Below, one piece after another: positions 22,135 to 27,165 of a DNA stretch of 48,330 nt (its first letter is position 1; the number at the start of each line of letters is the position of its first letter). The translations under genes were made by a program, and so were the position numbers. This DNA comes from Candidatus Binatia bacterium (GTDB taxonomy: Bacteria > Desulfobacterota > Binatia > UBA12015). The stretch lies in contig JAIEPK010000358.1 in the NCBI GenBank assembly GCA_019749875.1, forward strand, positions 1-48,330, read 5' to 3'. The notes beneath the pieces were generated by a model. That model was not told where the DNA came from. It ran no database searches and saw only the letters and a program-made list of their open reading frames with translations.

Positions 22135-22371
22135 ATGCGCACCACACTCGACATCGACGAGGACGTCCTTCGCGCCGCCAAGGAGATCGCGCGTCGTGAG
22201 CACAGGACCGCGGGCGCGGTCATCTCCGAGTTGACACGCAAGGCGTTGACCGCGGCGCCGGCGAACGCACGCGAGCGCAAGGCCACGCACGGGTTCCGGC
22301 CCTTCCCCGCCCGCGGAGGCCTCGTCACCAACGACAAGATCGACAGGCTGCGCGAGGATGACGCCTACTGA
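22135..22371 (+). CDS. vapB: VapB-type antitoxin, ribbon-helix-helix
   Basis: A 78-residue protein whose N-terminus RTTLDIDEDVLRAAKEIARR and the following AGAVISELTRKAL form a typical ribbon-helix-helix DNA-binding domain. The C-terminal part (FRPFPARGGLVTNDKIDRLR) is the toxin-neutralising tail of this subclass. It is followed by the toxin with a one-base overlap (TGATG) and preceded directly by the palindrome that it probably binds. Confidence 0.9.
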   Translation: MRTTLDIDEDVLRAAKEIARREHRTAGAVISELTRKALTAAPANARERKATHGFRPFPARGGLVTNDKIDRLREDDAY

Positions 22372-22799
22372 TGCGCGCGCTGCTCGACGTGAACGTCCTG
22401 ATCGCGCTGCTCGACTCCGACCACGCGATGCACGCGCGAGCGACCGGATGGCTCGCAGCCAACGTCCGCGCAGGCTGGGCGTCGTGCCCCATCACCCAGA
22501 ACGGGTGCATCCGGATCATGTCGCACCCGAGCTATCCGAATGCGCTGTCCGTGAGCGCGATCGTCGAGCGACTCGGCGAGGCGGTGGCGACGGCGCACCA
22601 TCGGTTCTGGCCGGATGACTTCAGCATCCTCGATGCCGGGATCGGCGATCCGACGCGCGTTCACGGCCCGCGACAGGTGACCGACGCCTACCTGCTCGCA
22701 TTGGCCGTGCGGAACCGCGGGCGCTTCGTGTCGTTCGACGCCGGCATCCCGCTTGCCGCGGTCCAGGGCGCGGAGCGCAAGCACCTCGTCGGACTCTGA
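22371..22799 (+). CDS. vapC: VapC-type PIN-domain ribonuclease toxin
   Basis: A 142-residue PIN-domain protein. The first catalytic aspartate is D6 in ALLDVNVLIALLDSDH. The middle acidic position reads CPITQNGCIRIMSHPSYP, a form with Gln seen in the subfamily that has ASCPITQ-type motifs. The last two aspartates are in VTDAYLLALAV and FVSFDAGIPL. It would cleave RNA when free of VapB. It belongs to a different VapC subfamily from the relic at 21876-22080 (this one has FDAGI, the relic GDDF), so the pair is not a simple tandem duplication of that gene. Confidence 0.9.
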   Translation: MRALLDVNVLIALLDSDHAMHARATGWLAANVRAGWASCPITQNGCIRIMSHPSYPNALSVSAIVERLGEAVATAHHRFWPDDFSILDAGIGDPTRVHGPRQVTDAYLLALAVRNRGRFVSFDAGIPLAAVQGAERKHLVGL

Positions 22800-22890: not shown

Positions 22891-25800
22891 CTACGCCAGC
22901 TCGTCGAGCAGCTCCGCGGCGTCCCGCAGGTCCTGCAGCTCGCGCCCCTCGCTGAACGACGCGCAGAGCGGCGCGAGCAGCGCGCGCGCCGCGGCGCGAT
23001 GCCCGCGGCGCTGCCGGAGCCTCGCCACGTCCATCGCCGTGCGCAGCGCGAACAGACGGTTCTCCTGCCGCCGCGCGATCTCGAGCGACTGCGCGAGACG
23101 CGCCTCCGCTTCGTCCTCCGCGCCGCCGCGGTCGAGCAGCGTGCGCGCGTGGACGCGGTGCAGCTCGGCGTCGCCCCAGTGCGCATCCTGACTGTCGGCG
23201 CGCATCAGACCGAGTGCGACGACGGCAAGCGCGTCGTCGTGGCGGCCGACCCGCCGCAGCCGTTCCGCGAACAGCACCAGGAAGCCCGGGGATCCGATCC
23301 CGACGGCGACCTTCGCCAGCTCGCCGAGCGCGTGCTCCATCTCGGCGATTCCCGGCTCGAGGTCGCCCGCGTCGGCGCGCGCACAGCCGCGGAGAAACCG
23401 TCCCGCCCCCTCGAACATGGGGAAGCCGAGCGGTGCCGCGAGCTGCACGAGCTCGTCGGCGAATGCGAGCGCCCGGTCGGGCTCGCGACGCTCGACGTGG
23501 TGGATCGCGACGTGCAGCAGCACGTTCGCGAGCGTGAGCGGATGGTCGAGGGACCTCGCCAGACGCACGGCCTGCTCGCTCAGGGCGAGCGCCCGGTCGT
23601 GCTGCCCGAGATACAGGTGGCACCACGCGAGATACGCGTGCGCGTTCACGCCGCGGTCCCAGCCCAGCGTGCGCGCGAACGACGCGTGCTCGCGGGGATC
23701 GTAGAGTGCGACGGCCCGGCCGTAGTGCTCGGCCGCGCGCGTGAAGCCGCCGCGATAGAAGTGCGGGAAGCCCGCCACGACGTGCGCCAGCATGAGATCG
23801 AGCGTGTCGTCGGTGCGCTCGGCCGCCGCGAGCGCGTCGCGCCCGATCGCCTCGCCCGTGGCCAGGTCGCCCTGCACGAAGTACGCGGTCGCGAGCCCCA
23901 CGAGCGCGCGCGCCAGCTCGGGCGACTCGCCGATGCGCGTCGCCAGCGCGCGCGCCCGCGCGTGCGCGGCCTCGCAGTCGGGATGCGAGAAGCCACCGAA
24001 GGCTCCGAGCGGCGTGGCGATGGCCATCTGCAGGCCGAGCTCCTGCTGGTCCCGCTCGCGATCCTCCGGAAGCGTGGCGAGCAGCGCCAGCGCGCGGCGC
24101 AGGTGTGCGATCGCCTCCTCGTTCGCCGAACGCTCCGCCGCGCGCTCGCCGGCGCGCCGGTAGTGCGCGATCGCTGATGCGATCTGCCCTGCCTGCTCGT
24201 GGTGCCGCGCGATCACCTCGGGCTCGGACTCGACGCGCTCCGGAAAGCGTCTCTCGAGCACCTCCCCGATGCGCGCGTGGAGCTGCTGGCGCGTGCGCTT
24301 CAGGAGCGATCGATACGCCGCCTCCTCGATGAGCGCGTGTTTGAAGGCGTACGTCGCGTGCGGTGGCTCGCCGCGCGCGACGAGGATACCCGCGTCGACC
24401 AGCCGTTCCAGGTCGTGGCGCAGCGCCGCGTCGTCGCGACCGACGACCGCAGCCAGCAGCGCGTGCGAGAACTCGCGCCCGAGGACCGCCGCGCGCTGCA
24501 CCAGCTCCTTCGCCGTGGACAGGCGGTCGAGACGTCCCATCAGGGCATCGGCGAGCGTCGCGGGAATCGCGTCCGTACCCCGCGTCGTCTCCGGGTCGAG
24601 CAACGACCGCGTCAGCTCCTCGACGTAGAGCGGCACGCCGTCCGAGCGCGCGACGAGCGCGTCCACGGTGTGCGCGGGAAGCACGTCCGGGGCGAGTGCG
24701 GCGACCACCTCGCGCGTCTCGGCCTCGCTCAACCGGGAGAGCGCGAGCGTCGTCACGTGCTCCCGCGCGGACCACTGCGGCGAGAACTCGGGGCGCGCGG
24801 TGAGGACGACGAGGAGCGGTGCCGTGGCACTCCGTTCGATCAGCAGTCCCAGCAGCTCGAGCGACGACGGATCCCACCAGTGGAGATCCTCGAACAGCAC
24901 GACCATCGGCTGCACGGCGCTCACCGCGAGCGTCCACGCCACCAGCAGCTCGATCGTCTTGCGGCGCTGCAGCTCGGGGCTCGCCTCGAGTCGCGTCGGA
25001 CACGGCACGCCGAGCAGGTCCGCAATCAGCGCGACCGCTTCCGGTGACGACAGGGCCCCGAGCCCGACGCCGATCTTCGCGAGCTTGTCGGCGGGCGAGT
25101 CGTCGCTCGTGATCCACAGCCCGTCTGCGACCAGCGCGATCATCGGGTGAAACGGCGTGCCCGTCGTGTAGGGCGTGGCACCGGTCTCGACCCAGGCGTG
25201 CCGGGCCGCGGTCAGACGCTCGCGCAGCTGTAGCGCGAGGCGTGACTTGCCGATGCCGGCCTCGCCGAGCACGAGCACCGTTCGCCCCGCGCCGCGGCGC
25301 GCCGCCTCCCACTGCTCGGACAGCAGTGCCAGCTCGGCCGCACGGCCGGCGAAGGACGTCAGCCGTCCGGACGCGACGGCGAGGCGACCGCGCAGCCCGC
25401 TGGCGCGCAGCACGCGCGCGAGCCCGAGCGGCTCGGGTCGGTCCTCCACGATCCGGGCGCCGGCGTCCTCGACCACGAACGCCCCCGCCACGAGTCGCTG
25501 CGTGGCCCCAGTGATGACGACCGTGTCGGGGGCGGCGGCGCTGCGCGCTCGTGCCGCCAGGTGCGGCACGTCGCCGAGCGCGATCAGGTCGCGCGTGGCA
25601 CCACCGCCCATCTCGCCGATCACGACCTCGCCGGTGTGGATGCCGATGCGCACCGCCGGCCGGATGCCGTGCTCGCGCTCCAGCGATTCGTTCACCTGCT
25701 GGAGCGCGTCGAGCATCTCCAGCCCGGCGCGCACCGCGCGCTCCGCGTCGTCCTCGTGCGCCTGCGGGTAGCAGAAGTAGGCGAGCAGCCCGTCCACCAG

Positions 25801-27165
25801 GTACTGCGCGACGTACCCTTCCCAGCGCTGGATGACCGCCGATGCCGCCTCCTGGATCCCGCGCACCACGCTGCGCAGGTCCTCCGGGTCGAGCTGGCGC
25901 GCGAGCACGCTCGCGCCGACCAGCGCGCACGACAGGACCGTGAGCTGTCGCCGCTCGGCAGCTTGTCCCGGGGGATCGAAGCCGTCGGTGGACGGCTCCG
26001 CATCGACGTGCGCCTCGCCCTCCGTCGCGGCACCGGGGCCGTCGAGGTGCCACGCGCCGTCGCGCAAGGCGAGTCGATGCTGGTCGAGCAGCCGATCGAC
26101 CGCCGCCGCCAGGCGCAGCGGATGGCCGCCGCTCGCGTCGTGCAGCGCGTGGGCGGCGCCGTCGCCGAGCGGCTGCGGCGCGAGGCGGCGGGCGAGCCAG
26201 GCCTCGACCTGCTCGACCGGGAGCCGGCCGAGACGCACCTCCCCACACCGCCCGCTCTCGAGCAGTCGCGCCCGTGTGGCGAGGAACGGGTGATCGTCGC
26301 CGAGCGTCTCCGGCCGGTAGGAGGCGACGACGAGGAGCCGCGCACGGGCCGTGCGGCGCGTGAGCTGGACCAGCGCGTCGATCGTCGAGGCGTCGCTCCA
26401 CTGCAGATCCTCGAGCACCAGTACGAGCGGTTGCTCGGCGGCGAGCGTCTCCACGGCCTCGGCGAGCTCGAGCAGCCGGCCTTCCCAGCTCGGGGTGCTC
26501 ACCCGCCCGCGGAGCCGCCCGGCGGTGGCGTCGTCCACCCGGCCGGGGAGCTGGAGCAACCAGCCCGGTGCACGGTGTGACAGCACCGACACCACGTCGT
26601 CACCGGCCGCCTCGTCGCACAGCCGGCTGAGGAGGTCGAGGATGGCGGCGCAGCCCTCGCCGCCGCCGTGCAGCTCCAGTGCTTGACCGCGCGCGCAACG
26701 GACGCCGTCGGCACGGAGCATCTCGAGGAACTGGTCGAGCAGCGCCGTCTTGCCCGCGCCGGCTTCGCCGGCGACGAGAACGGTCTGGCGCGCTCCGCTG
26801 CACGCGCGCGACAGCGCCTCGTGCAGCTCTGCCAGCTCGGCGTCGCGCCCGACGAAGATCGGCACCGCGGCGCCGGTCTCGACCACGAAGCGATAGCCGC
26901 GGCGCGGGATGGTGGTCAGGAAACGATCCGCGTCGGCTCCGAGCGCGGCGCGGATCTCGCTGATCGACACGCGCAGGACGCTGGGGCTGACCGTCGTCCC
27001 GGGCCAGACGGCGCGCTGCAGCTCCGCGTGCGTCACGAGCCGGTTCGGATGCTCGGCGAGGTACAGCAGGACGGCCGACGACTTCGCCCGCAGCGGGCGC
27101 TCGCTGCCGCGGAGACGGAGCCGACGAGTGCGTCGATCGAGCTGGAAGTCACCAAAAGAGATCAT
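22891..27165 (-). CDS. Giant regulator: winged helix, ATPase, degenerate cyclase, ATPase, TPR
   Basis: A 1424-residue cytoplasmic protein. Residues about 1-97 form an OmpR/CadC-type winged helix (ISFGDFQLDRRTRRLRL to TIPRRGYRF). An AAA/NACHT-like ATPase follows (P-loop GEAGAGKT 133-140; Walker B LVLEDLQWSD). Next is a class III nucleotide cyclase region, about 400-580, then a second ATPase (P-loop GEAGIGKS 634-641; LFEDLHWWD), then a TPR-rich tail. The cyclase looks dead: the first metal aspartate is Ala414 (LSCALVGAS, family FCDLVGS) and the transition-state Asn is His535 (HLAAR), while D458 and R539 remain. ATG 27165 starts the winged helix; no strong ribosome site. It is divergent from the exported protein at 27398 and is probably its regulator. 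Confidence 0.9.
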   Translation of the reverse strand: MISFGDFQLDRRTRRLRLRGSERPLRAKSSAVLLYLAEHPNRLVTHAELQRAVWPGTTVSPSVLRVSISEIRAALGADADRFLTTIPRRGYRFVVETGAAVPIFVGRDAELAELHEALSRACSGARQTVLVAGEAGAGKTALLDQFLEMLRADGVRCARGQALELHGGGEGCAAILDLLSRLCDEAAGDDVVSVLSHRAPGWLLQLPGRVDDATAGRLRGRVSTPSWEGRLLELAEAVETLAAEQPLVLVLEDLQWSDASTIDALVQLTRRTARARLLVVASYRPETLGDDHPFLATRARLLESGRCGEVRLGRLPVEQVEAWLARRLAPQPLGDGAAHALHDASGGHPLRLAAAVDRLLDQHRLALRDGAWHLDGPGAATEGEAHVDAEPSTDGFDPPGQAAERRQLTVLSCALVGASVLARQLDPEDLRSVVRGIQEAASAVIQRWEGYVAQYLVDGLLAYFCYPQAHEDDAERAVRAGLEMLDALQQVNESLEREHGIRPAVRIGIHTGEVVIGEMGGGATRDLIALGDVPHLAARARSAAAPDTVVITGATQRLVAGAFVVEDAGARIVEDRPEPLGLARVLRASGLRGRLAVASGRLTSFAGRAAELALLSEQWEAARRGAGRTVLVLGEAGIGKSRLALQLRERLTAARHAWVETGATPYTTGTPFHPMIALVADGLWITSDDSPADKLAKIGVGLGALSSPEAVALIADLLGVPCPTRLEASPELQRRKTIELLVAWTLAVSAVQPMVVLFEDLHWWDPSSLELLGLLIERSATAPLLVVLTARPEFSPQWSAREHVTTLALSRLSEAETREVVAALAPDVLPAHTVDALVARSDGVPLYVEELTRSLLDPETTRGTDAIPATLADALMGRLDRLSTAKELVQRAAVLGREFSHALLAAVVGRDDAALRHDLERLVDAGILVARGEPPHATYAFKHALIEEAAYRSLLKRTRQQLHARIGEVLERRFPERVESEPEVIARHHEQAGQIASAIAHYRRAGERAAERSANEEAIAHLRRALALLATLPEDRERDQQELGLQMAIATPLGAFGGFSHPDCEAAHARARALATRIGESPELARALVGLATAYFVQGDLATGEAIGRDALAAAERTDDTLDLMLAHVVAGFPHFYRGGFTRAAEHYGRAVALYDPREHASFARTLGWDRGVNAHAYLAWCHLYLGQHDRALALSEQAVRLARSLDHPLTLANVLLHVAIHHVERREPDRALAFADELVQLAAPLGFPMFEGAGRFLRGCARADAGDLEPGIAEMEHALGELAKVAVGIGSPGFLVLFAERLRRVGRHDDALAVVALGLMRADSQDAHWGDAELHRVHARTLLDRGGAEDEAEARLAQSLEIARRQENRLFALRTAMDVARLRQRRGHRAAARALLAPLCASFSEGRELQDLRDAAELLDELA

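Follow-up and report, generated by a model that had tools for sequence, protein, structure and literature searches.

What does a class III cyclase domain do in a protein that is organized as a DNA-binding regulator and that lacks part of the cyclase catalytic residues? This question is raised by a gene of a Candidatus Binatia bacterium (assembly GCA_019749875.1), which lies in a window of 48,330 nucleotides (the whole stretch of contig JAIEPK010000358.1 that was analysed). The gene forms a single frame of 1424 codons with no internal stops and starts at a Met at position 27165, as in its relatives (MISFGDF...). Its modules are arranged as follows.

22891-27165, reverse strand: whole gene (1424 aa), consisting of a winged helix, a first AAA_16/STAND module, a class III cyclase domain whose active site is lost, a second AAA_16/STAND module and a TPR region
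26866-27165, reverse strand: OmpR/PhoB-type winged helix (aa 1-100; Trans_reg_C, 46.4 bits, cut-off 26.2)
25981-26865, reverse strand: first ATPase module (aa 101-395; P-loop GEAGAGKT at aa 133, Walker B at aa 248)
25378-25977, reverse strand: class III cyclase domain (aa 397-596), catalytically degenerate (Guanylate_cyc match and predicted fold)
24166-25368, reverse strand: second ATPase/STAND module (aa 600-1000; P-loop GEAGIGKS at aa 634, Walker B at aa 755)
22894-24165, reverse strand: TPR region (aa 1001-1424; TPR_12 and MalT-like TPR matches)

The original prediction described a pseudo-cyclase sandwiched between two ATPase modules in a winged-helix protein, and this description is borne out by the order of the Pfam matches (Trans_reg_C at 23-93, two AAA_16 matches of which the best spans 104-280, Guanylate_cyc at 406-572, and TPRs) and by the Walker A and Walker B motifs, which are unbroken in both ATPase modules. 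The score of the cyclase model (PF00211, 42.8 bits) is well above its cut-off of 21.9. Judging from the domain matches, the winged helix is likely the DNA-binding output of the protein and the TPR region, with its helical-repeat matches, is likely its sensor. The winged helix and ATPase in front of the cyclase were also correctly recognized as an addition: the front half is approximately 40-52% identical to the front of separate winged-helix-STAND-TPR regulators of the class.

We then compared the active site with that of related cyclases by alignment. The relevant codons are the following.

25924-25926, reverse strand: Ala414 (GCG), replacing the first metal Asp (GAT in the paralogue)
25795-25797, reverse strand: Val457 (GTG), replacing the Gly that precedes the second metal Asp
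25792-25794, reverse strand: Asp458 (GAC), second metal Asp, retained
25561-25563, reverse strand: His535 (CAC), replacing the transition-state Asn
25549-25551, reverse strand: Arg539 (CGA), transition-state Arg, retained

The alignment places Ala414, Asp458, His535 and Arg539 exactly where they had been predicted, so that the protein has one of the two metal aspartates of active class III cyclases and only the Arg of the transition-state Asn-Arg pair. The His is not decisive on its own: Rv1900c, which has His at the Asn position, is described as active (PMC4886424), and Ma1120 is active with Ala (PMC4215837), and N535H alone is thus no proof of inactivity. Four further changes had been missed, namely F412S, S418A, G457V and K574E, at positions that are at least 90% conserved among 83 plain relatives, i.e., proteins in which neither a winged helix nor a kinase was detected. 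The substrate-selecting positions (Q454 and I528) are no peculiarity of this protein, since intact relatives have similar residues. On sequence grounds, we consider D414A to be the decisive change, with G457V and the neighboring losses in support. Because the codon at position 414 differs from that of the paralogue at two bases, a single-base error at this position is unlikely, and we discarded an assembly or single-base error as the origin of Ala414.

The genome itself presents 16 Guanylate_cyc matches and encodes a full-length paralogue of the protein on another contig (C669) with 68-69% identity. In a survey of 148 genomes of the class, two copies with the five-module order turned up in this genome and another in G013, where the contig ends inside the TPR region; two other genomes (G031 and G105) encode a winged helix-cyclase-STAND-TPR protein without the front ATPase. 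Two of the seven winged-helix-fused copies are broken (L050 at G012:C279 and L062 at G020:C1). No further winged-helix-cyclase fusion was detected at E <= 1e-30 in 395 genomes drawn across the phylum, and one scan of genome contigs returned remote matches only.

At positions 414/457/458/535/539, the window protein has A/V/D/H/R, its C669 paralogue D/I/D/H/R, G020 D/V/D/H/R, G105 D/V/D/H/H, G031 D/A/N/H/A and G013 L/V/D/L/R, as opposed to D/G/D/N/R in the plain sisters in G018. Asn535 is lost in all six winged-helix-fused cyclases (His in five, Leu in one) and so is Gly457, which is replaced by V, I or A. Other losses are private: D414A to the window protein, D414L to G013, D458N and R539A to G031, and R539H to G105. 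Fixation among orthologues, which had been raised for both the D-to-A and the N-to-H change, holds for the loss of Asn across the clade but not for D414A. Since the losses of N535 and G457 run through the clade, we rejected a recent lone mutation as the whole story. In the tree of the cyclase domains, the six winged-helix-fused sequences form one clade (SH-aLRT 97) adjoining the intact G018 proteins (99), and in another tree, which has four members besides G013, these four group together with 100/100 support and adjoin the same G018 proteins.

The separate winged-helix-STAND-TPR and cyclase-STAND-TPR families are both abundant in the class, and the window protein consequently seems to have arisen by joining members of these two local families: by sequence, the front of a winged-helix-STAND-TPR regulator joined to a complete cyclase-STAND-TPR protein. 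The G013 protein appears to have a mosaic history of its own. Its winged helix and first ATPase are nearest to those of the window type and its cyclase, on a long branch, falls within the same clade, and its rear ATPase is nearest to that of a G112 protein (49.5%). It is therefore probable that this front block, together with its pseudo-cyclase, was combined with a different rear STAND module from another lineage.

How general is the association between fusion and loss of the active site? We assembled 112 distinct cyclase-STAND frames of the class, picked by similarity: 100 plain, 5 winged-helix-fused and 7 kinase-fused, where plain means that no winged helix or kinase was detected in the available stretch and some plain frames are incomplete. 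The complete D-D-N-R set was found in 82 of the 100 plain frames and in none of the 12 fused ones (0/5 and 0/7). The first Asp is present in all 98 plain frames that cover the position, in three of the five winged-helix-fused proteins and in none of the kinase-fused proteins; in the latter (L148-L154, TOMM_kin_cyc-like), both the first metal Asp and the Asn are lost in 7/7. Fisher tests on these counts yielded 2e-8 and 5e-11, treating relatives as independent although they are kin. As each fused group is one clade, the 12 fused proteins without the full set represent two events. Because the winged-helix fusion is a single clade, only two lineages of the class underlie the association between fusion and active-site loss; in each of them, the gain of an output domain goes with the loss. 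In the winged-helix-fused members, 23 of 35 cells were lost at active-site columns vs 35 of 195 at other conserved columns, with 83 close plain relatives as the reference and cells counted as independent although the members are kin.

Despite these losses, constraint on the cyclase domain is similar to that on the neighboring modules. Relative to the C669 paralogue, dN/dS was 0.18 for the winged helix, 0.40 for the first ATPase, 0.37 for the cyclase, 0.33 for the second ATPase and 0.34 for the TPR region (simple counting method; dS 0.58-0.79), which makes the winged helix the most constrained module, at 79% identity to the paralogue. The AlphaFold2 monomer model of residues 1-620 has a mean pLDDT of 86.8, with a confident fold for the first ATPase and low confidence for the linker behind it (aa 379-400). 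The best Foldseek matches of the modelled cyclase in the PDB are Cya2 (2w01; TMt 0.92, 1.7 A) and CyaC; the class III cyclase fold is thus predicted to be intact.

Taken together, the clade-wide erosion of the active site, the constraint on the domain, its intact predicted fold and the intact ATPase motifs lend good support to the view that a DNA-binding STAND-type protein contains a degenerate cyclase. The explanation that we favor, and that we regard as probable though far from certain, is that the protein is a STAND-type transcription regulator whose dead cyclase is kept as a folded module for dimerization and for relaying the signal from a STAND-TPR sensor to a DNA-binding output. The TPR region would sense a signal and the rear ATPase would switch on nucleotide exchange. 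Given its residues, the cyclase domain presumably makes no cyclic nucleotides. By analogy with class III cyclases generally, the switch may make two cyclase domains associate, as it would in a relative with an active cyclase; here, their association would no longer complete an active site but would pair the winged helices on DNA. The C669 paralogue, which retains D414, D458 and R539, could still be weakly active, since Rv1900c also has His for Asn.

A broader version of this reading covers both fused groups: a cyclase-STAND-TPR protein gains an output domain at its front, winged helix or kinase, and its cyclase is freed from catalysis and kept as a dimerizing relay, replacing second-messenger synthesis by direct control of an output. 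We put this forward only tentatively, as a possible scenario that we would not yet bet on. Still, the same loss in the unrelated kinase-fused branch suggests that cyclase sensors are able to give up a chemical signal in favor of direct gene control.

The original prediction also proposed that the cyclase had become a nucleotide sensor driving the DNA-binding switch. The degenerate cyclase in a DNA-binding STAND-type protein stands, as described above, but sensing by the cyclase pocket is no more than a possibility. A dead pocket that has kept its affinity for ATP, GTP or a cyclic nucleotide and thereby gates DNA binding would be consistent with the retained D458 and R539 and with a predicted fold that matches cyclases solved with nucleotide analogues, and the same idea has been put forward for the mycobacterial proteins Mclx2 and Mclx3 (PMC4452763). 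However, the positions around the nucleotide site are among the most eroded: S418, G457, N535 and K574 are gone in all five intact winged-helix-fused members (F412, N535 and K574 in every member of both fused groups), and G031 additionally lacks D458 and R539. Moreover, the protein could sense nucleotides through its two intact P-loops, with no need for the cyclase pocket. We consider this alternative rather unlikely.

Class III cyclase active sites lie at dimer interfaces, and the two halves of mammalian cyclases complement each other, with the metal aspartates from one and the Arg from the other. The window protein might similarly be half of a heterodimeric cyclase in which the C669 paralogue, with D414, D458 and R539 retained, gives the two metal aspartates and the window protein gives Arg539; the activity described for Rv1900c with His in place of Asn (PMC4886424) would fit such a pair. 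Yet both partners have His for Asn and V or I for Gly457, the two genes lie on different contigs with different neighbors, and in G031 and G013, with one winged-helix-fused copy found per genome, both halves of the site have lost residues in these copies, which leaves the heterodimer improbable. Decay of a functionless gene, with active-site loss as its first visible damage, is the least credible alternative and very improbable: the broken relatives in G012 and G020 and the variation of the losses among members would agree with it, but the 1424-codon frame and both P-loops are intact, dN/dS is 0.18-0.40 in all modules and losses are far commoner at active-site columns than at other conserved columns.

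No conserved neighbor gene emerged from the genomic surroundings, which are not the same for the paralogue, the G031 copy and the G105 copy; a promoter and terminator scan found nothing, and upstream repeats were limited to short, chance-like matches. Several features were observed along the way. Convergent with the regulator gene, positions 22135-22799 of the window (forward strand) encode a VapBC-like pair, in which a PIN-domain toxin (PF01850) comes immediately after an antitoxin-like frame of 78 aa. The gene divergent from the paralogue (L049:10687-12528) encodes a eukaryotic-type aspartyl protease of the pepsin family (PF00026). Finally, one long frame with two tandem cyclase domains before an ATPase was found at G000:C415, L110 and L006 (own genome). 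In this frame, the second copy keeps D-D-N-R and the first has Arg and Ala for Asn and Arg. Two tandem cyclase domains followed by an ATPase is the order of mammalian soluble adenylyl cyclase.

How does the protein compare with known systems? Its best NCBIfam match is TIGR03903 (TOMM system kinase/cyclase fusion protein), with 591.6 bits over the cyclase-STAND-TPR part. TIGR03903 proteins possess an N-terminal kinase, where the window protein carries a winged helix plus an additional ATPase; with a score below the curated cut-off of 705.75 and no kinase match listed, we did not assign it to a TOMM system. The two kinase-fused proteins of the class that were scanned against NCBIfam both exceed that cut-off and their cyclases are degenerate. 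Pycsar defense was likewise set aside, since the PycC matches that PADLOC gives for the cyclase domain are no more than modest and are obtained for an intact relative too. Within the class, the plain cyclase-STAND-TPR proteins (such as G018, L052/L079 and L063) have the same module order and 61-62% identity over the cyclase; unlike the window protein, those in G018 have an intact D-D-N-R set and neither winged helix nor front ATPase. The winged-helix-STAND-TPR regulators (such as C631 in the same genome, and L067) resemble the front half, with 63% identity for the winged helix and 44% for the ATPase, but have one ATPase only and no cyclase.

Pseudoenzymes are well known among kinases and GGDEF proteins. 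For class III pseudo-cyclases, the mycobacterial Mclx proteins were the only relevant precedent in the literature that we searched. Mclx2 (Rv1358) of M. tuberculosis lacks one metal residue and the Asn, Mclx2 and Mclx3 (Rv2488c) apparently lack the substrate selectors, and both have already been proposed as regulators that bind ATP or cAMP (PMC4452763). By their description (cyclase, AAA/NB-ARC, LuxR HTH), they resemble the window protein in combining a degenerate class III cyclase with an ATPase and a DNA-binding domain. They differ in having one ATPase and a C-terminal LuxR-type HTH, as opposed to an N-terminal OmpR-type winged helix (Trans_reg_C), two ATPases and a TPR tail. Mclx2 is thus a partial precedent and, because of that earlier proposal, the principle of a degenerate cyclase in a regulator is not new. 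New here are the architecture, the series from intact to degenerate cyclases and the parallel found among kinase-fused proteins. With a clade in which losses accumulate stepwise next to intact sisters, it becomes testable what role a cyclase domain plays once it is unable to make its messenger, and the parallel loss in the kinase-fused relatives points to a general way for signaling proteins to change their output.
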